This document shows, piece by piece, positions 1 to 34,800 of a stretch of DNA of 42,425 bases; the stretch's first letter is position 1; each line of letters opens with the position of its first letter. Source of the stretch: Cytophagaceae bacterium (GTDB lineage Bacteria > Bacteroidota > Bacteroidia > Cytophagales > Cytophagaceae); the NCBI GenBank assembly GCA_025454925.1, contig JALONM010000030.1, forward strand, positions 1 to 42,425, read 5' to 3'. The notes beneath the pieces are model-generated. The model saw only the letters and a list, made by a program, of their open reading frames with translations, was not told the DNA's origin and did no database searches. The position numbers and the translations under genes are program-made.

Positions 1-3000
1 TTTCGGGCTTTCCTTCTATCATGATAAAAGCTCCCCAGTAAATGGGCTTTTTGTATATTTCTTTTATCTCCTTTTTCGCCTCAATAAAGGCCAGGCGTTT
101 ATCTCCGGTGCGCATCCAGCGTTCGTAAAAACTTAACATCAATTTTTGAGTAACCTCGTCGTTTACTTTAAATAAACTAATTACTACTGCTTTGGAACCT
201 GCCAATAAAAACGAGCGCTGTAAACCATATACGCCTTCCCCTGCCTGCACCGATCCTTTTCCTGTTTCGCAAGCCGAAAGCACCACCAGGTCTGTCTGAT
301 CCAAGCTCATATCCATAGCCTCCAGTGCTGTCAGGATGCCATCCTTCTGATTGACGTATGCATTTTTTGCATTATCTAAAATATCCCCGGATCCCCGCAA
401 AAGCACGCCAGAATTTAACAAAGGATTATTTGCCAAATCATCTTCACCCAAACCGGAATGAGACTGTTCTTTAAAATATCCGTGGGTAGCTATGTGCAGT
501 ACCTTAGGGCTTTTTACTTTTTTAACGGAGTCTTCTTCTACCTGCTGGTACAATAGCTTCCACGATTCTTGGGAAGAGGATGTTAACAATTGATGTATCT
601 CGTTAATTTCTTTCTCTGCACCTGGCAAATCATGTACGTTTTTTACCTTTACATTTTCTGTATAGAACTCCGGACTTCCACACAATATAAACTGGTTCGA
701 TTCTTTCTTTTTATTTTCTTTTGCCTTGGTTTTTGAACCTTGAATTAAATCCCTGGTATTGGTTACCAGAATCAAGGTATTCTGATCCAAGTTGTACACG
801 CCCAGACTATCCGCAAGCATCTCCAGGTTGATTTGGTTATATACTCCGTCACAAGAAATATACAGGGTGGACAGATTACCTATTTTCTCTTTTATCTTTT
901 TCCAATATATGTTGTATGAGTATTGATCAGGGGTATTAAACTGTGCCGAGTTTCTGTAGTAATTTAAATACTTTCCCTCCATCTGATTTCCATTCTGCAT
1001 CAATACCGCATCCGGAACCACCGACTGTTGTTTCAACAACAACGCTGCATATCGAATGGTATCGGTGAATGTTTTATAAAATGTGCGGAACCGCAACACT
1101 TCTACGGCGCCTTCATTAGGCAAAATGGATTTTGCCACTTTATTCCAGCTACATCTTTCTTCGGCTCTTTTAGCAGAAAAATCGTCGGAGCGCTGGGCCA
1201 TTTCTTTTTCCAAACGCTCAATGTTAGCTTCTAATTCGCTGATGGTAATGCCTTGTTCCTGTAAACTCTGTTTGCTCATGCTAAGGGCACTGATTAAAAA
1301 TTCTTTTTCCGCTATCCATTCGTTGTACCGAACAATGAGTAAACTATCGTCACTATTTAGAATTTTATCGAGGAGTTTAATGCTGGATGAAAGCAACAGA
1401 GCCTTGGTATTTAATACATTGTTGTATACCTGGGGGGTATATTGAGGCCATTCGGAGGATGGGCGGGAAAATACCACTGTGGTATAAAACTCAAACTCTT
1501 CGCGAAGCATATTCCAGAATTTACTCTTCTGGCGAAAGCTTAAACTTGGAAAATATTCTTCCGTAAATTTCAAATACACAGGAATGTTTTCTTCCATGAT
1601 GCGCAGGGCAGCACTGGCCTCGCCTTTCATGTAAAGCGTCCTGGCTAGTTTACCACTTACCTTTAAATATTCCGGATGACTGGAATTAAATAGTTCGCGG
1701 TAGGATTTGCGTACCTCTGAAAAGCTCTTTTCTGCTTCTTTGTATTGCGATTTTGCGTAAAAAACTTCGCCTCTCAAGGCTTCCAGGCGAATGCTGTTTA
1801 CATTGGAAGTGCCAAGTTTTTGAATCCAAAAATTATCTGCTTCCAAAATTCCTTGTAAGGCTTTGTCGTATTGTTTATGCCTGATTTGCAAAACACTATA
1901 ACCTTCCAGGGTTTGCGCATACAAAGGGCTGCTTTTTCCCGTGCTGTTTTTTATGATATCAAGTGCCTCTTTGTAGAGATTTTCTACCTCCTGAAACTTT
2001 GATCCCTGGCGGAGTGTGTTGAGATAAGCCAATTTAAGTAAGGTCTCCGAACGCCTCAAATGCTTTTTCCCTAGCACTTTTTCAATAATCTTATCGGCAT
2101 TTTTATAGGACTCCTCTGAACCTTTTGAATCATTGATCTGCAGGAGGTAATCACCATTCCGGAGATAAAAATCTGCGGCAGCCAAACTTTGCATGCCATA
2201 AATGGAATCAATGAGTCTTCGGGTTTCCTCCAACATTTTTCCGCATTGAGGAAAGTTACCCGTAAGAATCAACAAGGAAATCATTTCTTCGTTGAGCGGA
2301 ATGCGCTGAGGAGAGCCTGGGCCGAGCGCAGCAAGTACCTCTTGTTGGGCACGAACCAACACCTTTTCTGCTTTAAAATAATTACCTGACAAACTTAACA
2401 AGGCAGATTGTCTTGAAGCCGATTGTACTACCAAATTAATATTTCGCACATATACGTCTTTGCGCGCCGCCGCATTTGCCTGTGCGATGAGTTTAGCACT
2501 TTTATCAAATTCCCCTAGCAACTGATACAATGAGGTAATTGCCAGCATGGCTTTTTGCTTCTCTCCCAAATCCTCCGTATCGAGCGATAGCTTAGCCAAA
2601 ACAGGCAGGCTGTCCATGGCCATTTTATACTGACTGGCCATGATATGACTTTCCATGGCATGAGCCAGGTGATACGCATAGGCAGGTCCTTGACGCTGGT
2701 AGAGCGCAGCCGCTATGTGCAGCGCTTCTGCAGCTTTACTGCGCGCCGCTTCCATAGCATCTTGCTTCATGTATAATTCCGAATACATTGAAAGGCATTC
2801 CAACTGGTACTTACATTGAGCGGGAAAGGCCACACGAACAATAGTATCATAGCTTTGCTGTAATACGTTAGCCACCCATTTAAAATTTTTCCCATACGAG
2901 AGCTCGCAACGGGCTACGTCTAACAAAGACTGATGATAAACGACTGAACTTTTACCGTGCAAGCTAGACAACTCTTCGCTGGTCTTCTCCAACAACACCC

Positions 3001-4156
3001 GATAATTGCGGATATCCCCTTCATCCAGTGATATTTCTGTCAATAAAAATTGTAGCTCCCGATACTCCGGAAAATAAACTGGCAAGTGATTGAACTCTTT
3101 GCTGGTAAGTTCCGCTCTTTGTCGCGCCAGGTCAAGGTTGCCTTTCCACAGTTCATCGTAGGCTACACTTAAATTATACGATAACTGATAGCGATCTACA
3201 TAGCCTGAGGTCTGAGAGGCCAACATCAGGAGTCTTCGGGCATAGCTTTGCGCGTGAATTAAATCTCCTGATTTTTGAAAACAGTAAACCAACCAACGCA
3301 AATTTAAAATACGCTCAGGGCAAGACTCCAGGCGCTCATCCATGGCATAGGCATAATAAAAAGCATTCGAGGCTGAATTGAATTTTTGTTTTCTAAAAAA
3401 ATACTTGCCTTCCAGAGAATACAAGGCTAGCAAGGAAGGTTCCGATTTTCCGGCCCATTTGCGAAAATGCTGCTTTTCCTCTCCCAACAGACTAAGAAAA
3501 TTTTTGTCATCTCCCCGAGCGGCAAACATTTCTAAGGCCAGGAGTTTACGTTTTAACCATAGCCGTGTAGCAAAGATTTTATTTTGTTTTTCTGAATAAA
3601 AAGAAGTTACAACCGTGCTGACGGTGGCAGATCTCCAATCCCCCAAAAGCTTTTCTGCCTTGGCATACGAGCCCGATTGAATGAGGTATTCCAATTCAAG
3701 CAGTGATTTCCATTCATGCACCAGGGTGTCGGTAACTGAAACGGATGCTGAAAATGCTTCCTGCAAGTAGCGCCGTGCCTCTTGGCTGCGATGAAGTGCA
3801 AGGAAACATTGGCTGAGGTGCATCGCCGAAAGCATTTTGTCTTTGCCTGGCTGCATTTTGGTAAATAGGCTACAAGCCTCTTCCAAGGCCGATTCAGAAC
3901 GCTTAAAATACATTTGGGCCTGATACAACTCCACTTTAAATAATAGCACCTGAAGTTGGGCCAATGGCTCTGAATGAAATTTTTTGTAATACCGGTGAAT
4001 CAAACCGAGAGCTTCTTCATATTCTCCTTGCTCCATTTTCGATTGCAATATGAGCAATTTTTTTTCCGAGGATTTACTTGCTGAAAACGTGCGCTCTTCA
4101 GCTATCGCGAGGATGGGAAGGATGAAGAGAAAGGATAGAAAAAATAAGCTCCTCAT
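1..4156 (-). CDS. Exported TPR-CHAT protein (caspase-like), 3' end off window
   Basis: Reading from the ATG at 4156 gives about 1,385 residues before the window edge. The N-terminus is a signal peptide (MRSLFFLSFLFILPILAIA, then EERTF). About 1,000 residues of helical TPR-like repeats follow, then a coiled-coil-like stretch and a C-terminal CHAT domain. The CHAT domain shows the caspase-type dyad: His in HIATHGYF near residue 1221 and Cys in VVLSACETGKG near residue 1296. The ending IYWGAFIMIEG is typical of the last CHAT strand, so only a short tail should be missing. The CHAT and start frames agree (both positions are in phase with 4156). Known family: CHAT proteins are clan CD peptidases or scaffolds. 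The start lies one base after the upstream PorP/SprF stop, which suggests translational coupling. Substrate and location beyond export are not known. Confidence 0.9.
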   Translation of the reverse strand, partial: MRSLFFLSFLFILPILAIAEERTFSASKSSEKKLLILQSKMEQGEYEEALGLIHRYYKKFHSEPLAQLQVLLFKVELYQAQMYFKRSESALEEACSLFTKMQPGKDKMLSAMHLSQCFLALHRSQEARRYLQEAFSASVSVTDTLVHEWKSLLELEYLIQSGSYAKAEKLLGDWRSATVSTVVTSFYSEKQNKIFATRLWLKRKLLALEMFAARGDDKNFLSLLGEEKQHFRKWAGKSEPSLLALYSLEGKYFFRKQKFNSASNAFYYAYAMDERLESCPERILNLRWLVYCFQKSGDLIHAQSYARRLLMLASQTSGYVDRYQLSYNLSVAYDELWKGNLDLARQRAELTSKEFNHLPVYFPEYRELQFLLTEISLDEGDIRNYRVLLEKTSEELSSLHGKSSVVYHQSLLDVARCELSYGKNFKWVANVLQQSYDTIVRVAFPAQCKYQLECLSMYSELYMKQDAMEAARSKAAEALHIAAALYQRQGPAYAYHLAHAMESHIMASQYKMAMDSLPVLAKLSLDTEDLGEKQKAMLAITSLYQLLGEFDKSAKLIAQANAAARKDVYVRNINLVVQSASRQSALLSLSGNYFKAEKVLVRAQQEVLAALGPGSPQRIPLNEEMISLLILTGNFPQCGKMLEETRRLIDSIYGMQSLAAADFYLRNGDYLLQINDSKGSEESYKNADKIIEKVLGKKHLRRSETLLKLAYLNTLRQGSKFQEVENLYKEALDIIKNSTGKSSPLYAQTLEGYSVLQIRHKQYDKALQGILEADNFWIQKLGTSNVNSIRLEALRGEVFYAKSQYKEAEKSFSEVRKSYRELFNSSHPEYLKVSGKLARTLYMKGEASAALRIMEENIPVYLKFTEEYFPSLSFRQKSKFWNMLREEFEFYTTVVFSRPSSEWPQYTPQVYNNVLNTKALLLSSSIKLLDKILNSDDSLLIVRYNEWIAEKEFLISALSMSKQSLQEQGITISELEANIERLEKEMAQRSDDFSAKRAEERCSWNKVAKSILPNEGAVEVLRFRTFYKTFTDTIRYAALLLKQQSVVPDAVLMQNGNQMEGKYLNYYRNSAQFNTPDQYSYNIYWKKIKEKIGNLSTLYISCDGVYNQINLEMLADSLGVYNLDQNTLILVTNTRDLIQGSKTKAKENKKKESNQFILCGSPEFYTENVKVKNVHDLPGAEKEINEIHQLLTSSSQESWKLLYQQVEEDSVKKVKSPKVLHIATHGYFKEQSHSGLGEDDLANNPLLNSGVLLRGSGDILDNAKNAYVNQKDGILTALEAMDMSLDQTDLVVLSACETGKGSVQAGEGVYGLQRSFLLAGSKAVVISLFKVNDEVTQKLMLSFYERWMRTGDKRLAFIEAKKEIKEIYKKPIYWGAFIMIEGKPE

Positions 4157-4157
4157 A

Positions 4158-5060
4158 TCAATCTTTTCTTTTGCGGAACAAATTATCCATGGTCAACAAC
4201 AAATTGATCTCATGTGTATTTAGATTTACCCCAAACAATGCCTGCGTTTCAAACGCATAGGCAAATCGCAGGCGGGAGCTGATGTGCGTTCCTAATTGTA
4301 TGGAAGCTGAGCCATAACTTAAAAATGTTAAGCCTGCCCAGAAGTAATCTTTAATTTCAAATGTGGTATTGATCTGCGTAATCAATCCGTTATCGCGATA
4401 ATAATAAAATCCTATGTTCGGTCTCAGATTGTACGCATCACTCAGGCGTATGCGGGTACCCATAAATGCGTTGATGTTTCTTTTGCGTTTAAAAAAAGAT
4501 TCCGCAGTATCGCCTTCCAGGGAAATTTTATTATTGGCAAAAAAGTCTGCGGAAGCCAGGCCTGCATAAAATTTTCTGCCGTTGAGATGAAAACCTGCTC
4601 CGAGTTTTAATTGTGATTTTTGATAGGTACTGGAACTAATGACAGCGTCCTGCTGATCCCAGATGTTGAACTCGTCTGTGGAAAACGCGTGGTTGCTCCA
4701 AGCCAGCCTCATGCCCGAGGCAAGGGTCCATTTTTTGGATATGTTGATGCGATATGCATAATTAAGATTGATTTCGGTATTGGAATAACCGCTGTATCCT
4801 TGTGCGCTGAAGTTTAATCCACCGGCCATGTTGCGGTATTTATAATCTGCCCACAAATGCGCTGTCTTGGGCGAGCCTTCAATGGTGGCCCATTGCAAAC
4901 GCGAGAAGGTGGAGAAATTTAATTTAGAAGCATGCATGCCAAACGCGGCTGGATTGTATACCTGCTGGTTATTGACAAAATGGGCAATGGGTGTAAACTG
5001 TTGTGCCCAAAGAGCATGACTGACAAAACTGAGTATCAGTATTCGAACAAATTGATTCAT
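4158..5060 (-). CDS. PorP/SprF-type outer-membrane protein
   Basis: This 300-residue protein has a signal peptide ending in HALWAQQ and an early NNQQVYNPAAFG motif, the hallmark of the PorP/SprF family. The rest alternates aromatic and polar residues as expected for an outer-membrane beta-barrel (for example WADYKYRNMAGGLNFSA and FYYYRDNG). Known family: PorP/SprF proteins help secrete or anchor surface proteins that carry type B C-terminal domains through the type IX system; SprF does this for the gliding adhesin SprB. The gene lies 13 bp downstream of exactly such a type B protein, so the two are very likely partners. Its stop codon is one base from the CHAT start. It could also serve other cargo, but the pairing is the simplest reading. 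Confidence 0.9.
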   Translation of the reverse strand: MNQFVRILILSFVSHALWAQQFTPIAHFVNNQQVYNPAAFGMHASKLNFSTFSRLQWATIEGSPKTAHLWADYKYRNMAGGLNFSAQGYSGYSNTEINLNYAYRINISKKWTLASGMRLAWSNHAFSTDEFNIWDQQDAVISSSTYQKSQLKLGAGFHLNGRKFYAGLASADFFANNKISLEGDTAESFFKRKRNINAFMGTRIRLSDAYNLRPNIGFYYYRDNGLITQINTTFEIKDYFWAGLTFLSYGSASIQLGTHISSRLRFAYAFETQALFGVNLNTHEINLLLTMDNLFRKRKD

Positions 5061-5073
5061 GAAGCGAATAGTA

Positions 5074-7341
5074 TTAATATCGGATTTCTAAAAACCCTTT
5101 CGACACGTCACCAAACTGTCGGGAAGAAGAAGTGTATTGTTGCGTAAAAATAAAATAGTAGGTTCCAGCAGCAGCTCTTTCATTGTCGAGCGTTTCTCCC
5201 TGCCAGGAATTATCATAGTCTTCGCGCTCGTATATGAGGTTCCCCAGGCGATCGAAAATTTGTAATTTATTGGAACTGGCTTTTTTATCAATTCCGCGAA
5301 TTACGAAATAGTCATTCTGGCCATCGTTATTGGGAGTAATAAAGTTAGGGGCAAGGGTATTGTCGGAATTAAGTAACAGTACCAGATAATCTTCCGTTTC
5401 GGAGCGATCGTATTCGCTGGCACAAGCCATGTCTGAAGTTAATGGATTATTGCTCACACGTACACGCAATCGTGCCGGCCCAACTTTACCGCGAATAGGA
5501 ACGCTGACATTTCGAATATACAGAACGGAATCCGAACCAGCTTTTTCTCCCAGACCTCCAAATTCATCCGAGGTTATTTTTCCATCGTTGTTGCTATCGA
5601 TCCAGGCTGCGCCATAGCGAGATGCACTTGACGGACAATGTAATTTCATGGTAAATCGATCCCCTAAAAATAAGGTGTCGTAATCTTCTAGTGCCGTATA
5701 ATCCTGGTACCCGCTTGGATTGTAGCCAGACAGTTCTGAAAAAGTAGGACCATTTTCGATATACACTGAATTGATAAAACTGTTTTCACTATCGGTTTGA
5801 TAAAATTCACATTGTGTTTCCGCCAACTCATCGGAGAGTGAATAATACTGCTTCACCCGGATGTACTTAGATAACGATTGAATTAGCAATCCACGCGAAT
5901 CATAAATATTACAGGTCAAATTAGCCGATGGAGCAAAGGCTGGGAAAAAAAGAGTAAATGAACTTTTATTGCTTTTACCTAAAACATACACACTATCCGA
6001 ATCATATTCCCATTCATAATAAAAACCATCCGATTGCGGATATACGGAATAGCTGTTCTGCGAAGATATGGTAACAAAGTCTTTGCCCACAATATCAAAA
6101 GTTACTGGCTGGCTAAGGTACATTCTTGACATAAAATAATTTTGACCGCCATTTTGTATTCCTCCCAATACCAGCTTCCCTTGCCCAAAGTCTACATCGG
6201 CAGAATATATAAATGCCTTGGTGGTATCAGAATAAAATCCCTGATTTCCAAAACTTATATCTAAGATACCTGAAGGACTTACCTGAAATACAAGTGGATG
6301 AAATCCATCCAATCCTGTAGTAGTTCCAGCTGCATAAATGGAACCATCAACGTCTAATGAAATCGAACTTAAATAAGAAACCTGTCCGATGTAATCAAAT
6401 ACAGTATATCCGGCTCCGCTGAAACTTAACGTAGAACCTGTACCTGCATCAAGCCAACCTAACAAAGGAGATATCATGGAGCCGTTTACAACATATCCCC
6501 CAAAAACCAAGTTATTATCCTTGTCAAGCATTATGCAGGTAGTTTTTTCGTTCCCTCCATTGGTCAGTGAAATCGTTCGCATACCGCCCAGAAAACCTGA
6601 ATCCGGGAATCCATTTGACCTGAGTTTTATAATAGCAATATCATCAAAGGCAAAATTTCCTTGAGTCTGTCCGCAAATAAAAATACTGCCATCAGAATTT
6701 ATTGTAAACTTGCTGGCTTCTACATAGTCATTTTCGTAATACCCTTGATTCGTTCCGAATTGCGCTTGAAGCCCTGCATCTTCCTGAACTTTATACAACC
6801 TGGTATTGTATGCTATTCCAGTTCCGTAGCTTGCAAGTATAAGACAAGTACGATCGATGGGATTATAAAAAATATCTTTCGCAAATACCGATTCCAAACC
6901 ATTCGTCTGATACACCATATTATAAAAGGAACCATCCATGCGCAAACGGAAAGCGACCATTACTTTAGGCGCGGTAGAAGAAATAGCTGTAAATCCTGCT
7001 GCGATAATAAAATTTTCGGAAGTAATGGTTACTGCTCGAATTTCATTGATCTGATTACCCGCAAAAGTAGGGAGAGTAAAGAGGATAGGAGAAACATCGG
7101 ACTTACTCGAATCGATAAAGGCAATGTAAAATTTATTAGAATTGGATGTACCACCTGTACCAGCCGCCAGGTATCGCCCATCGGGAAGAACTTTTACTGT
7201 TCTTATGATTTCAAAGGTATTTGCGGAAACACCAAAAGATATTGAACCATCTTTGCCAAAACCAAGATCGGTAGTACCTGATTTTTGCGCATATGCACAC
7301 GTTCCTAAAATTAGGAACAGCATCCAACGTAGTTGTTTCAT
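5074..7341 (-). CDS. Surface protein with delta-60 repeats, GEVED domain and gliding-type C-terminal domain
   Basis: About 755 residues from the ATG at 7341, chosen because MKQLRWMLFLILGTCAYAQ is a clean signal peptide; an in-frame ATG at 7389 would add 16 residues. Residues about 5-420 are delta-60-type beta-propeller repeats (TDLGFGKDGSI, VLPDGRYLAAGT, ILDISFGNQG). An Ig-like segment follows, then a GEVED-type domain near 530-650 (AAWIDSNNDGKITSDEF, ARLRVRVS). The last ~90 residues are a gliding-motility-associated C-terminal domain (NFITPNNDGQNDYFVIRG, LQIFDRLGNLIYER, AAAGTYYF). Known family: this is the type B T9SS signal, exported with help from PorP/SprF. The protein is likely displayed on or released from the cell surface. 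It is the first gene of a three-gene unit. Confidence 0.88.
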   Translation of the reverse strand: MKQLRWMLFLILGTCAYAQKSGTTDLGFGKDGSISFGVSANTFEIIRTVKVLPDGRYLAAGTGGTSNSNKFYIAFIDSSKSDVSPILFTLPTFAGNQINEIRAVTITSENFIIAAGFTAISSTAPKVMVAFRLRMDGSFYNMVYQTNGLESVFAKDIFYNPIDRTCLILASYGTGIAYNTRLYKVQEDAGLQAQFGTNQGYYENDYVEASKFTINSDGSIFICGQTQGNFAFDDIAIIKLRSNGFPDSGFLGGMRTISLTNGGNEKTTCIMLDKDNNLVFGGYVVNGSMISPLLGWLDAGTGSTLSFSGAGYTVFDYIGQVSYLSSISLDVDGSIYAAGTTTGLDGFHPLVFQVSPSGILDISFGNQGFYSDTTKAFIYSADVDFGQGKLVLGGIQNGGQNYFMSRMYLSQPVTFDIVGKDFVTISSQNSYSVYPQSDGFYYEWEYDSDSVYVLGKSNKSSFTLFFPAFAPSANLTCNIYDSRGLLIQSLSKYIRVKQYYSLSDELAETQCEFYQTDSENSFINSVYIENGPTFSELSGYNPSGYQDYTALEDYDTLFLGDRFTMKLHCPSSASRYGAAWIDSNNDGKITSDEFGGLGEKAGSDSVLYIRNVSVPIRGKVGPARLRVRVSNNPLTSDMACASEYDRSETEDYLVLLLNSDNTLAPNFITPNNDGQNDYFVIRGIDKKASSNKLQIFDRLGNLIYEREDYDNSWQGETLDNERAAAGTYYFIFTQQYTSSSRQFGDVSKGFLEIRY

Positions 7342-7458
7342 ATGTAAATGTCGGGTAAGGAATAAAAGAGCAAACAAAAACCAGGCCATCTATTGAATAG
7401 TCTATTGGTTCGTGTTCCGCCTTCTTTCTAGAAACAAGATACGCAAATTATCTGAGCT

Positions 7459-8893: not shown

Positions 8894-10234
8894 TTACGGT
8901 AGATATTCGTAAGCACCCATATCGGGAATTGCATCGCGCAACTGATCCCCCAAATCTCTGGATTGACCGACTATAGGAATTCCTTTATTAATGGCCGGAG
9001 ATGCTGGTCGCAGTCTGAAATTGCCTTCGTAGTAGGCCACCCACTGAGGATCCCGATCAAACAAACAATTGCTTTGATTTGTTACTTGTCCTTTCAATAA
9101 ACAATTTATGAAATTGCTTGAGCCGCCATTGATTTCTATTTCTGTGTTGCGCCCTCCATACACGATGCTGTTCCTCATAGTAAATTCGTCCGTATCGCGT
9201 ATTAAAAGGGAGGCTTCATTTCTAATGAGTGCATTTATATTTGACAACGTACAAAAGTCCAGGTACCAAGACCCATTGTTGGCGTAGCATAAAGCCTCAA
9301 CTGCGCTATAGGCAAGCAAATTACGCGCCTGTACATCGGCACCGGAAGCCTGAATTAATTTTTCAGAAGCATTAAAAAGTGTAGCATTTTCAATGAACAA
9401 CTCTGCCAATGTATCTGCATCATCGGCTTGCTGAAGTTCAATAGTATTGGTTCCTCCGGAAATTTCTGCCCATGCTATTCTATTGCCTTCTGATCCTGTG
9501 CCAAATCGAATTCCTGACCACGAACCTGCCTCTCGTTTGGCATTATCTTCCAATCGATCAGAATGCATGATAACAGGCTGAGAAAAAGTTCCTTCTACAA
9601 GCAACGTTCCTTCTACCAATAGGCTTGCCTGAGCATGAAAATAGACTTCTGTACCCGCTGCCACCTGCAAGGTACATGACGCAGGAACAATGCAGGTGCC
9701 CGTGATAAGATAAGGTTTTCCGGAGATCCAGTTTTCTGCACAGGAACAGGTATATTGTTTCAACTCAATAGCATCTCTCGCAACGGCATGAATTGGAATG
9801 CTCATTGCTTGGCCAGATCGTATGAATTGAAGTGCATCTGCTACTGCATATGGAATAAATTGATTTTGCGCTTGCACATCGGCACGTATAAGAATCAATA
9901 GAGAATCATGGGCAGGCAAAAGTATATTTTTGGCGGAAGTCTGTTCCATGCCTTTCAGCACCATATCAAAATGAGTAGCCACATCGAGCTTTATTTCTTC
10001 AAGCAAGACCGTAGTTGCATTTCGATTAAAAACCCATAGGTACACATATGCCGATGGCCTTCCTGAAAAAAGTGTATCATAGGTGATGGTAGATTGAGAA
10101 AATGAAAGTGGAATATTGGGATCCACGGAAACGTCCTCTTCCTTTTTGCAGGAGACTAATACAATAGCCAATATCACCTGAAAAATTCCCATGAGGAATT
10201 TTGTGAAACATGGCTTCGGGAACATCGCTTGCAT
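8894..10234 (-). CDS. Choice-of-anchor-Q lipoprotein, probable right-handed beta-helix
   Basis: The product has up to 446 residues; in-frame ATGs at 10234 and 10225 are both possible. The N-terminus has a lipoprotein signal with lipobox VLVSC followed by KKEED. Residues about 40-150 look like an Ig-like domain. Residues about 165-400 carry short strand repeats (SLLVEGTLLVEGTFSQPVIM, NSIVYGGRNTEIEINGGSS) typical of a parallel beta-helix. The C-terminus (NFRLRPASPAINKG, then LRDAIPDMGAYEY) is the choice-of-anchor-Q motif. Known context: such lipoproteins are surface or periplasmic and often of unknown function. Its neighbours upstream (alpha/beta hydrolase, 45 bp) and downstream (Crp regulator, 5 bp) suggest co-transcription. 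Confidence 0.82.
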   Translation of the reverse strand: MQAMFPKPCFTKFLMGIFQVILAIVLVSCKKEEDVSVDPNIPLSFSQSTITYDTLFSGRPSAYVYLWVFNRNATTVLLEEIKLDVATHFDMVLKGMEQTSAKNILLPAHDSLLILIRADVQAQNQFIPYAVADALQFIRSGQAMSIPIHAVARDAIELKQYTCSCAENWISGKPYLITGTCIVPASCTLQVAAGTEVYFHAQASLLVEGTLLVEGTFSQPVIMHSDRLEDNAKREAGSWSGIRFGTGSEGNRIAWAEISGGTNTIELQQADDADTLAELFIENATLFNASEKLIQASGADVQARNLLAYSAVEALCYANNGSWYLDFCTLSNINALIRNEASLLIRDTDEFTMRNSIVYGGRNTEIEINGGSSNFINCLLKGQVTNQSNCLFDRDPQWVAYYEGNFRLRPASPAINKGIPIVGQSRDLGDQLRDAIPDMGAYEYLP

Positions 10235-20469: not shown

Positions 20470-22227
20470 TTATTGTTTGATAACGGATGAAACGATAGGT
20501 CCGTTTTCGGTATTCAATTCCAACCAATAGATACCGGCTAGCAATGCTTCGGCCAATACTTCTACCTGATCTTCTGAAAGTAGTATCCTGGCAGGTACTA
20601 CCATTCCATTTACATCTTTCAATTGGGCAGCGATTACTCGGCTGTTAGCCGTTGTTACTATAAATCTATCCTGGAAGGGGTTGGGAAAAGCCGACCATTC
20701 CACGATGCTCTGATCCAAATACGAAGCACTGCGCGCACTCGCATTTACCTGAATGGTTATTGTGGCCTCGGAGGTTTTGCCAGCATTATCGGTCGCCAGC
20801 GCTTTGAGCTGGTGCGAGCCTGCACTAAGATTAGCCAGGACAGGATCTAAGGAGCCGCCATTGGTGCTGTTCCAAACGTAGGGAGCTGTATTCTCCTGAC
20901 GAATCAAATTTCCATCCAAAAATAATTTCACATTCGAGATCGTTCCATCGGCGTCAGATGCATTTACCTGTACAACGATGTTCTTTCCGGTAGTAGCAGC
21001 ATTCAACGGCTGAGCGAAGCTCACAGTAGGATTTCCTGTTGGTAAAGAGCCAATTGTAATGGTGAGATTCGTGCTGGCGGTAGCGCCTTTGTTATCGGTG
21101 GCAACAGCCGTAAACTGGTACGTGCCTGAAGATAGATTTGATAACACTGGATCCTGGTTGATATGATTCCACTCATATGGACTTACCAATTCTTTGCGCA
21201 CAGAAACTCCATTCATAAATAATTCTACCGATACAATGGAACCATCGGCATCGCTGGCAGAGGCACGTACAATAAGTGTGGCAGGCGCAGGGAAATTACT
21301 TCCAGCGGCCGGATTTAAAAATGAAACTTGTGGATTCTGATTCTGTCCGATGACCACCGGATTGGTAAGAACGTTTCGAATATCGGTAATGGAAGGTGAG
21401 TTATTGCCCCCAGACATATTACCATTCACAATATTTCCACCGTTCGAAATCAGGTAATATACCATGCCGGCATCAGAAGGATCAAATTTGCTAACAAATG
21501 GATTTCGGGTATACATCCAACGGAGGTTCGCATCGGAGGAAGTGCGCATCCAATCCCATTCGTTAGTGCTCAAGGCTCTGTTAAGTCTGTAATTTTGATC
21601 TGGTATCGCTACACGTTTTATTGCGGGAAAGTTATTTCCAATGCTTGTCCAGGTATGTGGAGAACAGTCGGCACGATAATAGTTTTCGTTCCAGCGGCCA
21701 TGTGAAATAATGTAAACGTGCGGGTGTGCCGATGAAGAAGAACCATTGATCGCACGCCAAATGGTTTCCATGGGGCCTGCCGCTATTATAAAAAGAGGAT
21801 TGGCGGAGGTAGACCGATTAATTTCTGCGCGCAAATGCGACTCACATCCGGCGGGATTTGCGATATGATCAAACATAACAGACGGACTGTATCCATATCG
21901 ATCGATCATTCCTTGCGCACTGGCCACCATGTGTGCGGCATCCCTCCCTTCAAATTCAGGTTTATCAGCATAATCGCCCCCATCGTTGTCAACCGTGTTT
22001 GCATTGCCACAGGTATTATTGTTGTATTCCACATGCACCACTTTGGATTGATGGCCGGCTGCTTTTGCAATTCCCAATGAAACGGGCAAGGCAATTATGT
22101 CGTCGTCATCGTGTAAATTTCCATCAAAACTCATCGCAATGCGTCCTGCCCCAAAGGGGAAAGTTTGGGCTAATACCGAAGCACTAAGTACCCCTGAAAC
22201 TAAAATTCCTTGGACTAATTTTTTCAT
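20470..22227 (-). CDS. Secreted nucleoside-hydrolase-like protein with Ig domains and T9SS tail
   Basis: This 585-residue protein has a signal peptide (MKKLVQGILVSGVLSASVLAQ). The N-terminal ~270 residues look like a nucleoside-hydrolase-type Rossmann domain: an acidic cluster in SFDGNLHDDDDI (Asp35, Asp40-43), HVEYNNNTC, FDHIANPAGC, PLFIIAAGPMETIW and HVYIISHGRWNENY. Two bacterial Ig-like domains follow (about 290-385 and 390-490), each with a DADGxIxxVxLFxxG motif and an APYVWN or SPYEWN turn. A T9SS type A tail begins near WSAFPNPFQDRF. The hydrolase assignment is from motif layout only. A sugar- or nucleoside-acting secreted enzyme is likely; the reaction is not known. Confidence 0.8.
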   Translation of the reverse strand: MKKLVQGILVSGVLSASVLAQTFPFGAGRIAMSFDGNLHDDDDIIALPVSLGIAKAAGHQSKVVHVEYNNNTCGNANTVDNDGGDYADKPEFEGRDAAHMVASAQGMIDRYGYSPSVMFDHIANPAGCESHLRAEINRSTSANPLFIIAAGPMETIWRAINGSSSSAHPHVYIISHGRWNENYYRADCSPHTWTSIGNNFPAIKRVAIPDQNYRLNRALSTNEWDWMRTSSDANLRWMYTRNPFVSKFDPSDAGMVYYLISNGGNIVNGNMSGGNNSPSITDIRNVLTNPVVIGQNQNPQVSFLNPAAGSNFPAPATLIVRASASDADGSIVSVELFMNGVSVRKELVSPYEWNHINQDPVLSNLSSGTYQFTAVATDNKGATASTNLTITIGSLPTGNPTVSFAQPLNAATTGKNIVVQVNASDADGTISNVKLFLDGNLIRQENTAPYVWNSTNGGSLDPVLANLSAGSHQLKALATDNAGKTSEATITIQVNASARSASYLDQSIVEWSAFPNPFQDRFIVTTANSRVIAAQLKDVNGMVVPARILLSEDQVEVLAEALLAGIYWLELNTENGPIVSSVIKQ

Positions 22228-25309: not shown

Positions 25310-25809
25310 GCATTTCCACCGGTTCATCTTTCAACACCTACGAATCAATACCCTTAGAATATTTAAAACCAATCCCTGCATCAACTGCTCAACAAAGGGA
25401 GTGAACTTGTGACCCGTATATTCATTTCTTGCTGGCCTATTAACGTAAGCCTTCATCTGTTGTAGCATTTTGATTCATGGCTTGAGGATCATTCCATGAC
25501 ATTTGCCTGATGCAAAATAAAAAATTCTAGAATTGGTAAAGCCAGTGTGCATGCTGGAACATAGACAACTCAATACCTGATTAAAAAGTAATGTTAAACA
25601 GCGGCAATAAAGCAGCAGGAAACAGCATGCTGGCAGCCACTCCTGCGATTGATGTTAGTTGACTTTTTTATTTACAGTCTTTTGAAAATTAATAAGTTAA
25701 ATCGATTTGTTTATATTTTGTAAGGGGCTGCTATGTTTTTGTATTCAGTAAATTCTGTCTACGTCCTGATTCAGGGCGTACATTGGACCAGATTCAAATA
25801 GGTCTGATT
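25310..25809. other. Long leader spacer of the giant-gene cluster
   Basis: No gene is seen in these 500 bases. GCAGGA (25615-25620) and TCCTGC (25641-25646) can pair, enclosing the 10-bp palindrome CAGCATGCTG (25623-25632). The last 120 bases are AT-rich and hold a promoter-like box. Confidence 0.45.
25712..25720 (+). promoter_or_regulatory. Weak candidate promoter box upstream of the giant gene
   Basis: TATATTTTG is close to the Bacteroidota TAnnTTTG element but one base too long. It lies about 90 bp before the ATG. A TTTG at 25681-25684 is farther upstream than the usual spacing, so the call is weak. Confidence 0.25.
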
Positions 25810-28800
25810 ATGCAGAAAATTTACATGAACATTATTTTTATTTGGGGAATGTTGTTGTTTATCCCCGGCTTGGCTCAACCTGTCCGGGAAGGCGCTGTAA
25901 CTATAAATTCGGAAGGTCATTACGTTCAGATCAACCACGATGGGAATGGCAGCCTTGGTATTGAAAGTGTCGAATTCACCGTAGAATCCTGGATTTACGT
26001 TACTTCAAATATTAGTAACGATTTTAACTTTTTCAGATTTGTAAGTGGTGGTAAACAACTATCGGTTTCGTACCGTGGAGACGGCAACAAAAATTCCGAC
26101 CCTTGGGGGGTTGATACGCAAGGCCTTCCGGAATATGGAGGAGGGACAAAAGATGCTAATTGGTATCTTTCCTACAAAGGGGGGTATACTGCTCCTACAT
26201 TCCTTAACAAATGGCACCACGTAGCTGTGGTTGTTGGATTTAACAGTACGTTCTCCCTTTATATAGATGGACAGAACGCTATAAGCACAAGACTTACCAA
26301 AAGCGGAGGAAATATTGCTTCATTATTCCCATATAACGGAGATGGCAAATGTGAATTAGGAGGAACAGCCATTAACACCGGGCAAAAGGGAACGTTTTAT
26401 GCTTCTGAATTTCGTGTTTGGAATACAAAACTAACTGCCAGTGAAATTTCAAAGTATTACGATGAGGAAGTAAATAAGTCACACCCGAAATGGAACAATT
26501 TAATTCGATACTATCATTTCACAGAATCTTCAGGCACTGGATCCTCCAGGGTATTTGAAGACCGTTCCCCGGTTAGTGAATACGACGGAAGAGTTTCAGA
26601 TGCCTCTATGGGTATTACTACGGATCAAAGTCCGGCCATTAAGCCCCCTGCCTTTACAAGCAATGTATTCACTACTGCATTCACCGCTTCAGATTGTCAA
26701 CTTAGCAGTATTTCCTTGATATGGACCAACCTCCGGTCAGGAACGTTTGGATATCTTAATGCCAACGATGTTTGGTTTCAGGTTCGAAGAGAAGATGATA
26801 ATTCAGAAAAACATGCCGGTGCCGCCAATGCTTCTTCTGATGCTGCGGTGGGAGAAGGAGATAAAAAAAGATACAAACTAAAAACTTATTGGTCTGTAAA
26901 AGGAACACTGGTCTATTCAGACGATGAAATGTGGAGCGATTATGGAACAATAAAAATGCAATACCAAGCACCCATTGCGATAAACGCCAGTACAAGTAGC
27001 TGCGATAAAAGCATTACGCTGGAGTGGTCTGCTGCAGATGGTAATCCTCCTTATTGGACCATCGAACGTTCGACGTCGGCAAGTTTTGCTTCCTCCATTA
27101 CTACCATGACTTCTACCTTGGCAGGAACAAATTCAACCTATACGATGGCGAATCAGCCTGTTGAAACGAATTTGTATTACCGGGTTCGAGCCAGTGGGAA
27201 TGATGTAAACGGTTGTTTGGTTGGTGCGGTGAATTCAGCCATCGCAACGGGCTTTACGTCAAAACCACCGCTGGCTCCTTCCAACATGAGCCTTACTCAA
27301 AATCTTGTTACCAAAACAATACATGTAACATGGACTAATCCATCAGGGAACAACGCCGATAGTTGGATCATAAAGCGCAAAAAATTTGATGGCACGGATG
27401 AAGTAACGTTTACTACTGCGTTAGGTGTTACCCATTTTTCGGATTCGGATTTACAACTCTGCCAGACGTATAGCTATAGTATTGCCGCCGTAAACGAATG
27501 TGCCGCAGAGGGGGTATATGCAACCACCGACCTAACCGGAAATGTTAGCACCGACTTATCCAATGCCATTTCCAGCATGACCGCCACCAAGGGATATTTA
27601 CCCGATGCAGTACAGTTAGAATGGTCGCTGAATGGAAGTTTATCGAACATAGACCGTTTCCGTATTTTTCGATCAAGAGCAGATCAGAATAATTTCAGCT
27701 TGTTAAAAATTTTAGATAACGATCTTACGTACTTAGACGAAACTGCCATTGGAGGCGTATTCTACAATTATAAAGTAGTAGGAGAAGCTGCTTGCGAATC
27801 GAATACCATTTATACCAACGAAGGCATTGATATGGGATTTGTTGTCCCATTTGGAGTAGCAAACGGACATGTTGAATATGCAGGAGGAAATCCGGTAGAA
27901 AATGTTACGATTGATTTCACGCGACAGAGTGGAAATTCCGGACATAGTCTGACTTTCAACGGTACTTCATATATCACAACCGGAAAATCTATCCGGGAGC
28001 TTGGACCTTCTTCTTTCACTATGGAAGCATGGATAAAAACCACTTGCACCCGATGCGGCATCCTTGGTAAATCAGATCTTGACAATACCTGGGAGTCGGG
28101 CGAAAAAAGTTTTTACCTTGACATCAGTGGACGACCTTCATTTGTAGGCAATGGATCCGGCTATATTACCGGAAGTGTGCCGGTGAACGACGATAACTGG
28201 CATCATATCGCCGTAACTTGGGATAAGACCGGAAGTAAGCGCGCTATGTATGTGGATGGCGCTGCTGTTGGCCTGGCCACAGCTACGTATAGTGGAAGCC
28301 AGAGTGATGCGGCATTTACTTTCCAGCTCGGTCGTCAGAATAATCCTGTTTCGGTCACAGAAGCCCTGAATCATTTCACTGGAGAAATGGATGAAATACG
28401 CATCTGGAACAATTCGAGATCTGCCGATCAAATTAAATTGAATTTCAACCGGGTCATCAACGGCTCAGAACCTGGACTATTGGCGTATTGGCGTTGTGAC
28501 GAAGGTTTTGGAAATAAAATCTTCGATGCCTCTTCCTCCGATAATCTGTTTCATAAACATGATGGCACCTTTTTTTCCAACGGGGTTTCTTTCAGTACTG
28601 ATATTCCATCAAACAACCAGCTAGGTATACGAGGCCTTACTAATGAATTCGGTGATTATACGATTCAATATATCCCCTACAAATCCGGAGGAGAAATATT
28701 TAAGGTTACACCTTCCTTGGGTCAACATGCATTCCAACCTTCTTCCCGAACAGTATTCATCGGGGACGGTGCACAAACACAGAATGGACTGGACTTCAAT

Positions 28801-31800
28801 GATATTTCATCCTTTACTGTAACAGGAAAAGTAACGTACTATAACAGTCAGGTACCTGTAGAAGGGGCCACTATTCTGGTCGATGGAAAAGAATCGATAG
28901 GGATCGACAACAAAGTAATCCGCAGCGATGCGGAAGGAAATTATTCCGTGAAAGTACCTATTGGGAAACATTTTATTTCTGTAAAAAAAGAAAAGCATAT
29001 TTTTTCTCAAGGACATTTCCCTCCCCTCGATGCTTACGGAGCCATCACGCTGCATGAATTTACCGAAAATATAAGCGTTAATTTTATAGACAGCACCAAA
29101 ATAAAAGTTGCCGGAAGACTGGTAGGTGGAAATCGGGAAGGTGAAAAAATACTTGGTTTTGATTTGTCGACGAATAACGTCGGAACTGCGGATCTTGAAT
29201 TTAAACTTTTAAAGGAAGGATATGATCTGGACCTGAGTAATCCTGGCATCTTCGACAAAATTTCCATGAGTACAGATCCCGTTTCCGGAGAATATGAACT
29301 TTGGATGATTCCTGAAAAATGGGTGGTAACCAAAGCCGGCAATGCGAAATATTTTGTAGCACCGGAGGATCTTTCAACGATTGATCTTTCTGGATCTCTT
29401 ACTCCAGTGACTGTAAGCACGGTGGTAAATGCCGTCACTTCCCAGTATGAATATCATCATAAATTAAATTTTATTATTCGAGAGAAACCAAGTATTCAGG
29501 TCTCTAATGCCGATGGATCAGATTTTAAAGGAGACCATGAAATTGTAATCATTGACCAAGCCACAGGCATTCCAGATACCTTGGACATTTTAGCGGGTGG
29601 ATATTTTGATTTTCCTGTTTTTCAAATGGGAAAATCCTACTCAGCAAGAGTTAGTGTTTTTGAATATTATGCCAACGAAACACATCCGAATGGTGCAGTG
29701 ATTGATCGGGTTCCTGTAAAAGATGCCGAGGTATCGATAGTAAATAATTTAATGGTTAATCCAGTACCCGTTTCTGGTAAAACAGATTCCAAGGGAGAAT
29801 TTTTGCATCCATTCAAAGGAGGTATTCCATCTCTTAGTTCAAACGGAACTAACTCGTATACACAAACGATGGAAGTATATGTACATGTAGAAGGTTCGCA
29901 ATATACATGGACGGAGGATGGAGAAATATATCGTGCCTATGTATTAGGGTCCAAATCCCAATCCGGCACTGATTTTATAACCTATGGTCCGGAAATTCCG
30001 GAAATGGTGCTGAGAGATCCACCAGGGTCGAACAGTTATGCGTACATCGAAAAAGGATCTACGTTTTCTAGCACCAGCGGATATACCATGTCCACGAGTT
30101 CTGCAACTTCGCTGGATTATACCACTTCCACAGGTGTGCGATTTGGGATAGGTGGAAGTATTACAGGACCATTGGTAGAATCGAACTACATACAAGATGC
30201 ACAGTACGGCATTGGCATTACCAGCGAATTTAACAAAGAAGGAAATTTTACCCGGACATGGTCGTTTAACAAACGCATTGCAACCAGTGCTGATCCGGAA
30301 GATGTGGGCGCAGACGCCGATTTATACATTGGAAAAGGAACAAATTTCTTTATGTCCAAATCCCACAATTTAAAAATTTTACCGCGTCAATATTGCATCA
30401 ACAAAGGCTTGACCTATTATGAAACGAATAAGCCTTATGTAATTGCAATCATGGAAGGAATCGTCATGGACGACCAGTCTACCACGTTTTTTGTTTACTC
30501 ACAAAAACATATTTTATATGAACTAATTCCGGAGCTGATCAACTTGAGAGACCGGCAGTTTTTAAAGCCACAATATGTTAGCATGCTTTTGCCTTCGCAC
30601 AAAGACTTCGGATTAAGCAACGACGATCCGGATTTAAGTGTGCCTGTTTCATATACTTTTACCCCATCTCAAGTGGGTGAGATGGACTCCGTTGCCTTTC
30701 TCAATCAACAGATAGGCATCTGGATTGGTATGATTGGTATTAACGAGATGGAGAAAGCAAAAGCTACCGTTGTTGACAATATTAGTATTGACGGATCCGC
30801 CGGAGCTTTCTCCAATGAAATCACCGAAACCCGAACCTCTGCGGATCAGTTTAAACGCTTTGGATCTGTCAAATTTTACAGCAATTCACAGGCAGGATAT
30901 TTATATTCAGGCGCAGGATTCACGATGAATTATAATAGCAATGCCGACTTCGGGCTAACTACATCCGGTTCCAATGCCATTACCAATCAGATAAAATTTG
31001 GATATGTCATTGACGAGCACGACGAAGGCGATTACTATAGTATTGATGTTAAAAAAAGCAAAGGAACTGTTTATGGATCCGTTCAGGAATTTTCGGTTTC
31101 CAAAGAAAATACGGAAGACTGGATGTCAAACCAACCGGCCTTGCAATATGGATTTGGGGCAGGCAGTCTAGTTTCTTCTGCAGGGTACTTTGCAGCGTTT
31201 AAATTTTTTGTTGGAAAGTCTACCGAAAAAGTTGCTGCTAACCGATCTGCCTATTTAGGGGCTGCATTCTTCGCCATTGATATGGCTACCCATGTAACCA
31301 AATTAGGCTTGGTAGCATCTCATCATGATGTCGATAATCTAAGCGGACTTGATTTTGATGTGTGCGGATTTTCTGTTTCGAGTCCCATTTTTTATACACG
31401 CGGCGGACAGAGCCGTTGTCCGCACGAGGGCATTAACGAATCTCTTTTTTATGTTAATGAACAAGACCGAACCGTTGAATTAAGCCGGGCTACCCTGCAA
31501 CGAGAAGTTCCGGTCATAGAGGTAGAGCAGTCCGTGCAAAATAATGTGCCTGAAAATGATGCTGCTGAATTCAAAATCATACTAAAAAATGAAAGTGAAT
31601 CCAACTCGAATCTTTGGTATGATATTTCATTGTTGGAATCTTCTAATCCCAATGGAGCCATTCTCCTGATTGACGGATTAAGTCCTGAACGATCATTCCT
31701 GATTCCTTCAGGTGGATCTGTTGTTAAAACTCTGACTTTACGAAAAGGAACTAATGCGGTATTTGAGTACGATAGTATTGGATTGATTTTGCATTCTCCA

Positions 31801-34800
31801 TGTCAATTTGACCCTTCCACCGTTCAACACGACATCGCGGATACGGTTTACATTAGTGCGCGTTTCATTCCGGCTTGTTCAAAAATTTCTCTTTCCTCGC
31901 ATCAGGAAAACTGGATAATCAATTACGAAAGTAATCAGCAAACTACCGTTACACTTTCGGGTTACAATCTGAATCTTAGCACCCTTTCCCGAATTGATTT
32001 TCAGTATAAATCTTTAAGCGGTTCAACCGTTACCGCCATGGCTTGGTTTAAAGACACCAACTCTGTTGCCTATACTACATACACCGGACCGAAAAAACAA
32101 TTGAGTCAATCAAGTTCCAGCTTTGTTTGGGACGTACGTGACCTCAGCGATAGAACCTACCAGTTGCGGGCGCGCGCCGTCTGCATGGATGGATCGGTAA
32201 GTGAAACACCTTTTGTAACTGGAATCATTGACCGCATTAGTCCTACCGTTTTTGGAACACCCAGTCCGGGAGACGGAATATGGAGTCCTGGAGAGAACAT
32301 TTCTATCACGTACAATGAAACACTTGAAGCGGGTTTGCTAAGGGATCACTCGGTGCATGTGCGAAGCAAATTAAATGGTGCGGCAGTTTCTCATGGAACC
32401 TCGTTGCGATTTAATGGCAGTACTCAATACGCGCGCATTCCATCTGTAGCCCTGCGCGATAAATCCTTTACCATAGAATTTTGGTTGAAACGCGAAGCAG
32501 GTGCTTCGGGTACAGTATTGGCAAAAGGCCACGAACAGGAACAATTATCCTTTTCCTTTCTTGCCGATGAACGCATACGAATTAAAATCGGAGAAGCCGA
32601 TTTTACTGTCAATCCCTCGCCCTTCTATATCGGTACGCATCCTGTCAATGCCTGGCATCATTGGGCCCTTAGCATGAACCAAGAATCCAACGTCCTTTCG
32701 CTTATGCTCGACGATATCGTTGTGCATTCCGAATCCGATGTGTCATTTAATCCCAACTCAGCCGACGAACTATACCTGGCACGTTCCGTAAATGCGGACG
32801 AATATCTGGCAGCTCAGTTACATGAACTTCGTATTTGGGAAAAAGCACTACTTTTATCTGAAGTAGTATCGAACATGAATGCTTCGCTGGGCGGTTCGGA
32901 ATTAGGCCTCTATGGATATTGGCCTGCAGAGGAGGGGCGCGGTACGCTCGCCTTGGATAAAACTGCTGGAAGGCATATGCAAGTAGTGGCTCAGTGGGAA
33001 TTATATCCAGGAAGTGAAGCCATTCAATTCAACGGAAGCAATCAATACCTCTCCTTAGATGGAAGGAATGCCAACATCAATAAAGACACTGATTTTACTA
33101 TCGAATTCTGGTTTAAAGGAACAACGCCTGCTTCCACCCGAACGTTGTTTTCTTCCGGAAGAGGCGATTTAAGCGACACACTTGCTGCCAATGCAGCTCT
33201 TGCTTTATCGATACAAGTCAATAGCAGTGGATTTTTGCAAGTGGTTTCCGGAGGAGTAATTTTCCCAGCGACAAGCATCAATTATTTCGATTCGAATTGG
33301 CACCATTTTGCATGGGTGGTTGCCCGCAATGCAAGCTCCCGTTCCTATGTAGATGGAGTTTTGCAAAAATCCAGCAGCCCGAATAGTATTCAAGGGCTGG
33401 GTGGAGCCACTGTATGGCTGGGAGCCAGAGGATTTAAGACAGATCCGCTTACTTCCAGTATTGATCAGTACTTTCAAGGTTCCATTGATGAATTCAGAAT
33501 TTGGAATTCAGCCAGAAGCATGGATTTTCTGAACAGCTATAGGAATAATAAACTTCAGGGAACCGAGGAAGGATTGCTTCTCTATTATCCATTTGAAGAA
33601 TATACCGAAGTTATGGGAACGTTGATCCGATCCAGCAGTTTGTCTGACAAAGCAACAGGGCCAGGCTTGTTCCCTTCGAACAACGCCCTTGCCAACGGAG
33701 GACCGGTATTTGTTTCCGGAGCTACCATCAGAGATGTTCGACCGCTCCAGGATATTCCTTTCGATCTGGTGATCAACAACGACAAAATTATCATCACACC
33801 ACTCATTGAAAAAAATAGAATTGAAGGTCAGATATTGGAAATACATGTGCAGGATGCTTACGATCTAAGAGGCAATAAGCAGCTATCCCCTGTAAGCTGG
33901 ACGGCCTATGTAGAACAAAACGAATTGGTGTGGCAGGAATCTTCTTTACACATCCAACATACCATTGGTTCTAGTTCTACCTTTACTGCCACATTGGTGA
34001 ATAAAGGAGGTCAGCAATATCATTATGTTCTCGAAAACTTACCGGCATGGCTGAATACAAATGCCTCCAGCGGAAGTATTTCTCCGAACTCTTCGAGGCA
34101 AATTACCTTTACGGTGCATGAAGGCTTACAGCCTGGTTATTACGAACAAGGGATAAACCTAAGCACGTATTTAAACTTCGATGAGAAGCTAATGGTAAAA
34201 GTGAATGCCCTGGCAACTCCTCCTGATTGGACTTTTGACCCAGGCAAATTTCAATACAACATGAATTTCTTCGGTCGACTTTTAATTGGTCAGGTGCCAT
34301 CTTCGGATGTGAATGATCAGGTGGCTGCTTACGCGGGCAATGAACTGCGTGGCGTCTCCAAGGTACAATACATTCCACAACTTGATGCATATCTTACATT
34401 CATTACCATTTACAGCCATCAGCAATCCGGAGAGAAAATTACTTTCAAGGTATGGGATGCCAGCCAAGGAAAACTTTATGAAGAAGTGAGTCCGGAATTA
34501 ATTTTCAATGCCAATGAGATAGTAGGAAGTTCGACCAATCCGCAAAACATAATAACAGGAAATGGCGTCGCTGCAAAAATTACGCTCAATCCAGGTTGGA
34601 ATTGGATATCCTTTAATCTTGAATCACAGAAGCTCTCGAACATCGATTCATTATTTAACAACCTTGGCACAAGTGGTGATCTGGTAAAAGGACAATCTGC
34701 ATTCGATAGTTATGATCCATCCATTGGTTGGTACGGCAATCTTACTTTTACCAATGGAATTCAGGTGCCTGAAATGTACAAAGTTTATTTAAAAAACGGG

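Follow-up and report, generated by a model that had tools for sequence, protein, structure and literature searches.

The closest described systems, cited here from excerpts of the respective papers, are surface modules of the type IX secretion system (T9SS). In Porphyromonas gingivalis, PorP binds both PorE and the type B protein PG1035. PorE has been proposed to connect PorP with peptidoglycan, its TPR or propeller domain being the suggested site of contact with PorP (PMC9143113). PorE is made up of TPR, propeller, CRD and OmpA-like parts (PMC7192894). Flavobacterium johnsoniae has five operons in which a type B substrate and its carrier are encoded together with a PorE homologue; type B proteins have been divided into mobile ones, on the gliding track, and static ones, with PorE as wall anchor (PMC12618676). 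SprF joins the gliding track via a Cys-X-Cys C-terminal tail (PMC12635249). From another setting, Csx29 is a TPR-CHAT protease that is allosterically activated in its complex upon target RNA binding (PMC10028731). Here we describe a three-gene unit of Cytophagaceae bacterium (contig JALONM010000030.1, positions 1 to 42,425; this whole stretch of 42,425 nucleotides is called the window) in which a type B surface protein and a PorP/SprF-family carrier are joined by an exported TPR-CHAT protein. It is likely that the three genes act as one surface/periplasm module. That they represent a third class of T9SS type B module, in which a periplasmic protease docks on PorP, is a reading to which we give an even chance.

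The genes lie head to tail on the minus strand in the order type B surface gene, PorP/SprF, TPR-CHAT, with gaps of 13 bp and 1 bp (Table 1). The TGA stop of PorP is followed by a single base and then by the ATG of TPR-CHAT; order, strand and this junction, as given in the preliminary description, were confirmed from the sequence. The surface protein runs from a signal-like N-terminus (MKQLRWMLFLILGTCAYAQ) through a delta-60-like region, a middle part matching no family and a GEVED domain to a C-terminal sorting domain (CTD), which passes TIGR04131 over residues 664-736 (52.1 bits, cut-off 35). The mechanical open reading frame (ORF) of this gene begins at 7389, upstream of the chosen ATG at 7341. 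The carrier passes TIGR03519 (145.4 bits, cut-off 90.55). Window base 1 is the contig end, so the TPR-CHAT gene has no stop; its second copy in this genome (locus L017) has five further residues before the stop.

The unit resembles the PorE-PorP-PG1035 set and the F. johnsoniae operons in combining a type B CTD protein, a PorP-family barrel and an exported TPR third protein (excerpts of PMC9143113 and PMC12618676). The positions agree as well: the gene for the PorE-like Fjoh_3950 directly follows that for the shuttle Fjoh_3951, just as CHAT follows PorP in the window (excerpt of PMC12618676). The third protein of those systems is PorE-like, whereas that of the window matches TPR-type and CHAT families only (Pfam, E 0.01), with no propeller, CRD or OmpA. 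The SprB-SprF gliding module shares the type B adhesin and dedicated carrier (excerpt of PMC12635249) but not the third gene, and since the window PorP has no cysteine, its unit is without the twin-Cys link to GldK. Csx29 of the Craspase likewise unites TPR and CHAT and is co-encoded with a partner, which controls it (excerpt of PMC10028731); the window protein, in contrast, is exported, and its partner is an outer-membrane barrel, not Cas7-11.

The genome of the window has 12 CHAT matches and 29 PorP matches, and it carries a second full three-gene unit (L017, contig C96) with identical gene order and again one base between PorP and CHAT. Identity between the two copies is 35% for CHAT (1153 aligned residues), 39% for PorP (293) and 28% for the surface protein (357); the last is just 368 aa long in L017 and retains GEVED and the type B end. 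The T9SS is represented in this genome by SprA (2393.8 bits) and the T9SS sortase (1374.5 bits), both above cut-off, in a check that covered these two parts.

In the family census, CHAT matches were collected from 18 same-family relatives (79 matches) and their surroundings were read with our own PorP, CTD and CHAT models. In total 90 CHAT ORFs were read, 12 from the window's genome and 78 from relatives (L145, missed by the CHAT model, is uncounted); 12 of them had no readable upstream ORF, leaving 78. PorP is directly upstream on the same strand in 21 of these 78, including L066, counted despite a broken CHAT frame. The second copy and this frequency bear out the view that the unit is not a chance arrangement. 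The preliminary description had proposed counting how often a type B gene is the third member beside PorP-CHAT pairs, and in the family it is in 18 of 21 (exceptions: L063, L101 and L112). The 21 linked genes are spread over 14 of the 19 family genomes. No PorP-linked CHAT was seen in G005, G009, G013 or G016, the first of which had no CHAT match in the family listing, and all that G008 offers is L062, with a third gene truncated after 135 aa that matches no Pfam family. Linkage was found for 18 of 39 CHAT ORFs of at least 1340 aa in this family (f1) and for 2 of 38 readable ones of 600-1339 aa. The PorP-CHAT gaps range from -77 to 103 bp, the negative values being based on the longest frame and perhaps overstating the overlap.

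Beyond the family, an order-wide PorP profile search of 241 genomes (at most the best nine candidates each in most) led to 20 further stretches being picked and read. In family f20, PorP is followed by CHAT in L207, L208, L209, L210, L213 and L071, with gaps of 1-238 bp, and not in L211 and L215; these loci were chosen by PorP similarity and therefore give no rate. A phylum sample of 296 genomes was searched with a profile of the CHATs of about 1400 aa, taking the best two candidates per genome; among the genomes with matches listed, the window's is the sole member of f1. Near full-length matches, among those listed, occur only in the window's genome and three f19 genomes, whose genes (L219-L221) have no PorP neighbour. 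A profile scan of genome contigs gave four CHAT loci, none with a PorP neighbour, and a Microscillaceae record (L028) has a CHAT of the 1400-aa class unlinked to PorP.

Some variants of this arrangement were also observed. In L066 (4597-8872) and L210 (2201-6405) the TPR-CHAT frame is split into two ORFs and the unit is otherwise intact, through assembly error or decay. L097, L102, L104, L105 and L106 have a tandem pair of CTD-match genes upstream of PorP-CHAT. In L101 (99-4749) and L112 (6152-10792), a TPR-CHAT of 1163 aa stands 102-103 bp past a PorP whose lineage differs (tail SAPCPKF) and which no type B gene adjoins. Separately, an exported TPR-CHAT of about 900 aa lies directly downstream of an exported barrel-like protein of 313-342 aa (judged by eye; ending in F or L) in L022 (5626-9417, G000:C123), L081, L083, L087, L098, L114, L117, L118 and L133; the barrel-like protein of L022 matched no Pfam family. 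G019, of family f2 in the same order, has 46 CHAT matches, several of them near one another.

The phylogenetic trees indicate that the linkage belongs to particular lineages. The CHATs of the 1400-aa class form a single clade (SH-aLRT 100) in a tree of 88 rows. A 49-row tree of this class, without the broken or short L066, L139, L141 and L210, has 23 linked and 23 unlinked rows, with three at contig edges, and needs 3 label changes against 15.7 in shuffles; both trees are quick searches with long branches. The window's clade consists of 13 linked rows and one edge row. The preliminary description had held that CHAT genes lying beside unrelated genes in relatives would speak against the unit: this is the situation of other CHAT paralogues, and not of the window's clade, in which 13 of 13 readable members are PorP-linked. 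A second linked clade of the 49-row tree has 10 linked rows, one unlinked (L018) and one edge row; its limits are unsure because the 88-row tree also includes the unlinked L019 and L103. In a 64-row PorP tree, 26 of 28 CHAT-labelled PorPs fall within one 33-row clade (support 100), and a neighbouring 10-row group (support 85) contains 7 of the 10 OmpA-labelled PorPs. The partner labels change twice, against 9.0 in shuffles, in a non-random set that combines rows fetched by CHAT or PorP similarity with the PorPs from the window's genome; L062, L066 and L210 were labelled by hand. L101 and L112 represent a separate CHAT association with another PorP lineage. A single recent copy event was considered and rejected, the linked units spanning two PorP sub-clades and two families.

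Pairwise distances within units are correlated as well: 0.92 for PorP-CHAT (23 units), 0.90 for PorP-CTD and 0.84 for CHAT-CTD (21 units, using the nearest CTD gene). Within clades the values are 0.95, 0.86 and 0.83, and none of 2000 shuffles was as high. In genomes with two units, such as G010 (L073, L106) and G017 (L076, L104), each PorP stays, as judged by eye, with its own CHAT lineage in both trees, which speaks against common descent as the whole explanation. An improbable alternative is that the genes are merely co-expressed, the exported TPR-CHAT acting elsewhere in the envelope and sharing the operon for regulation. Such an arrangement would agree with the many related TPR-CHATs that adjoin unrelated genes, reading like glycan and LpxH-type genes (named by eye). 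The PorP linkage, however, is lineage-specific, has a constant order, is shared by both copies of the window's genome and by two families, and mirrors the PorE slot.

That slot can be compared directly. The third genes of six other PorP operons, one in the window's genome (L224) and five elsewhere in the order (L212, L215-L218), contain OmpA and PD40 in all six cases, TPR in five (not L212), mostly under the Pfam cut-off, and CRD in five (not L224). A type B gene is directly upstream of PorP in all but L212. Because these operons have a PorE-like OmpA gene in third position, TPR-CHAT takes the place of the known periplasmic partner, and this suggests an exchangeable third-partner slot in type B/PorP operons. 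Among 25 PorP ORFs read in the window's genome, CHAT is next in two and an OmpA-positive gene in five, four of the latter (L225, L236, L237, L239) resting solely on a small OmpA model; L236 and L237 have no type B gene upstream.

The tails of the carriers were also inspected. C-X-C is absent from the last 40 residues of all 27 CHAT-linked PorPs, three of which have a single Cys in the last 20. A PRYF C-terminus was found in none of these 27 and in 5 of 10 OmpA-linked PorPs. It is common to the PorPs of L212, L214, L215, L217, L224, L225, L229 and L231, five of which precede OmpA-positive genes; as a guess, it might be a candidate PorE-binding tail.

Occupation of the PorE slot may also be explained in another way, with TPR-CHAT connecting or chaperoning PorP in the periplasm and proteolysis irrelevant. 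This would suit the proposed role of PorE in linking PorP to the wall (excerpt of PMC9143113), and kinesin light chains account for most sequence relatives of solved structure found for the TPR part. We nevertheless regard a pure scaffold as quite unlikely, for both catalytic motifs are present in 21 of 21 linked rows (83 of 91 CHAT rows overall, some of the remainder being cut), and 14 of 14 aligned PorP-linked CHATs keep His1225 and Cys1296 at 25-41% identity to the window.

The preliminary description regarded an exported CHAT protein as unusual. In this family, export appears to be ordinary: by a crude test, which 101 of 192 other ORFs of at least 300 aa in the same loci pass as well, a signal-like hydrophobic stretch is present in 77 of the 80 CHAT ORFs whose N-terminus could be read. 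The structure model of the CHAT half is of low confidence (mean pLDDT 52.2, four sequences), and its fold matches are supporting only: the nearest predicted likeness is SAVED-CHAT (Z 13.4, 170 aligned, rmsd 3.6), then DdvA, gingipains, separase and caspases, with the flavodoxin-like chain 1ykg (Z 10.1) tying with the last two. To judge by the titles of PDB 8rot and 8rw5 (Z 11.3 and 10.9), DdvA is a transmembrane anti-sigma factor, so that a similar fold may occur in a membrane signalling protein; a search for it in the open-licence PMC literature listed no paper containing the name. PDB sequence searches gave TPR proteins only for the CHAT profile, nothing below E 0.3 for the window CHAT half and nothing at 0.01 for the PorP profile. 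With regard to a Craspase-type context, the three window proteins matched no PADLOC family (E 0.01); the neighbours are PorP and type B genes, while on the far side the contig ends within the CHAT gene. For want of a PADLOC match, CHAT as an anti-phage module was set aside.

If the CHAT domain is a protease, its substrate might be the surface protein itself. The sortase PorU, of a related enzyme clan, processes type A substrates. By a PorU-like role, TPR-CHAT could trim the type B protein or free it from its carrier. Several data would fit such a maturation protease: the CHAT model, at low confidence, resembles gingipains in fold, the CTD co-diverges with CHAT, and there is no recurring fourth gene that might encode a dedicated substrate. 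A fourth member of the unit was looked for among the two ORFs that come next after CHAT in 23 units and was rejected (41 ORFs, no between-genera hits at 1e-5). Set against these, type B proteins are proposed to remain on the carrier, and in a pull-down PG1035 still had an intact CTD (excerpt of PMC9143113). Moreover, CHAT has a signal peptide but no sorting domain of its own and should therefore be periplasmic, with the anchored substrate outside, and of the 13 window-genome PorPs that directly follow a type B gene, 11 lack a CHAT. Maturation is thus an unlikely function.

A more specific proposal of the preliminary description, cleavage of the delta-60 part, depends on the head of the surface protein. 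The delta-60 label is weak in the window protein itself (41.6 bits, cut-off 76.5); two counterparts in relatives pass (147.1 and 155.1 bits). The heads differ among units: delta-60/DUF5122 with GEVED in L062 and L065, GEVED alone in L017 and L064, FG-GAP in L102 and L120 and the Ig-like Big_9 in L073, while only the sorting domain was recognised in L126. Since domain searches detected no delta-60 repeats in the surface proteins of L017 and L064, delta-60 cutting cannot be the general function, and we rejected it as such. Different heads on an otherwise constant unit fit a module with an exchangeable outside part.

Returning to the docked-protease reading, we picture the module as follows. The T9SS would export the surface protein, and the dedicated PorP barrel would collect it and keep it anchored. 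The periplasmic slot, filled by a PorE-like wall anchor in static modules and by a twin-Cys tail link in gliding modules, would here be taken by TPR-CHAT, whose TPR part may dock to the periplasmic face of PorP; both anchoring and docking are drawn by analogy from published PorP/PorE work. The three products may thus form a physical complex. The CHAT part would be a caspase/separase-like cysteine protease capable of cleavage, with an activity set by the state of PorP and the surface protein, so that an outside event (a ligand, damage, or loss or failed assembly of the surface protein) could lead to periplasmic proteolysis. The gating of TPR-CHAT and its substrate are conjecture. Tentatively, the unit could even be a transmembrane caspase switch, in which the PorP-held surface protein senses the outside and controls the protease through the barrel, surface events triggering proteolytic signalling. 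In such a switch the sensing heads (delta-60, FG-GAP repeats, Ig-like) might be exchangeable, with PorP and CHAT constant; the switch reading as a whole is less likely than not.

Several observations weigh against the docked-protease reading. First, 21 of the 39 CHAT ORFs of at least 1340 aa in f1 were not seen PorP-linked (contig-edge cases included), from which it follows that CHATs of about 1400 aa also work without PorP. Second, seven PorPs of the 33-row clade have no CHAT next to them (L070, L072, L074, L077, L211, L222, L223). Third, vertical inheritance alone can yield correlated PorP, CHAT and CTD distances, and the partner check of paralogues was done by eye on two trees. Fourth, the C-X-C test does not separate partners, the motif being found in none of 10 OmpA-linked and none of 25 window-genome PorPs; its absence from both kinds only sets the unit apart from SprF modules. 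Finally, some units carry a weaker type B label: TIGR04131 reaches 28.4 against 35 in L102 and is unlisted in L073, where, as in L102, the label rests on CHU_C, which passes in both.

Table 1. Features of the three-gene unit in the window
Feature	Position	Strand	Remark
T9SS type B surface protein, 755 aa	5074..7341	-	ATG at 7341, stop at 5074
Best delta-60 repeat stretch, residues 209-258	6568..6717	-	under NCBIfam cut-off
GEVED domain, residues 578-654	5380..5610	-	39.0 bits
CHU_C / TIGR04131 type B sorting domain, residues 664-739	5125..5352	-	CHU_C 83.2 bits
PorP/SprF-family outer-membrane carrier, 300 aa, 0 cysteines	4158..5060	-	PF11751 136.7 bits
Exported TPR-CHAT protein, 1385 aa readable	2..4156	-	3' end lost at contig end
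Best TPR_12 stretch of TPR region, residues 795-856	1589..1774	-	59.5 bits
CHAT domain, residues 1081-1380	17..916	-	174 bits
Putative catalytic His1225 (HIATHG motif)	482..484	-	invariant in 14/14 aligned PorP-linked CHATs
Putative catalytic Cys1296 (LSACET motif)	269..271	-	invariant in 14/14 aligned PorP-linked CHATs

Elsewhere in the window, positions 8894-10234 (minus strand) encode a protein of 446 aa that begins like a lipoprotein and matched no Pfam family at E 0.01, and an open frame of 3308 aa occupies 25783-35709 (plus strand). A 585-aa frame at 20470-22227 (minus strand) has at its end a weak match, of 24.6 bits, to the end of the T9SS sortase model; the frame is perhaps T9SS cargo.

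In the open-licence PMC literature, judged by title and start of abstract, no paper was found on a pairing of PorP with CHAT or of CHAT with type IX secretion; in PMC9127263, retrieved for PorP/SprF/CHAT, the word 'chat' is absent from the main text. That the unit recurs in related genomes suggests that these bacteria have surface modules of a third kind. If the docked-protease reading is true, the unit would add a third class beside the mobile and static type B modules, with an enzyme in the partner slot, and the exported caspase-like proteins of Bacteroidota would gain a concrete partner and a testable function.

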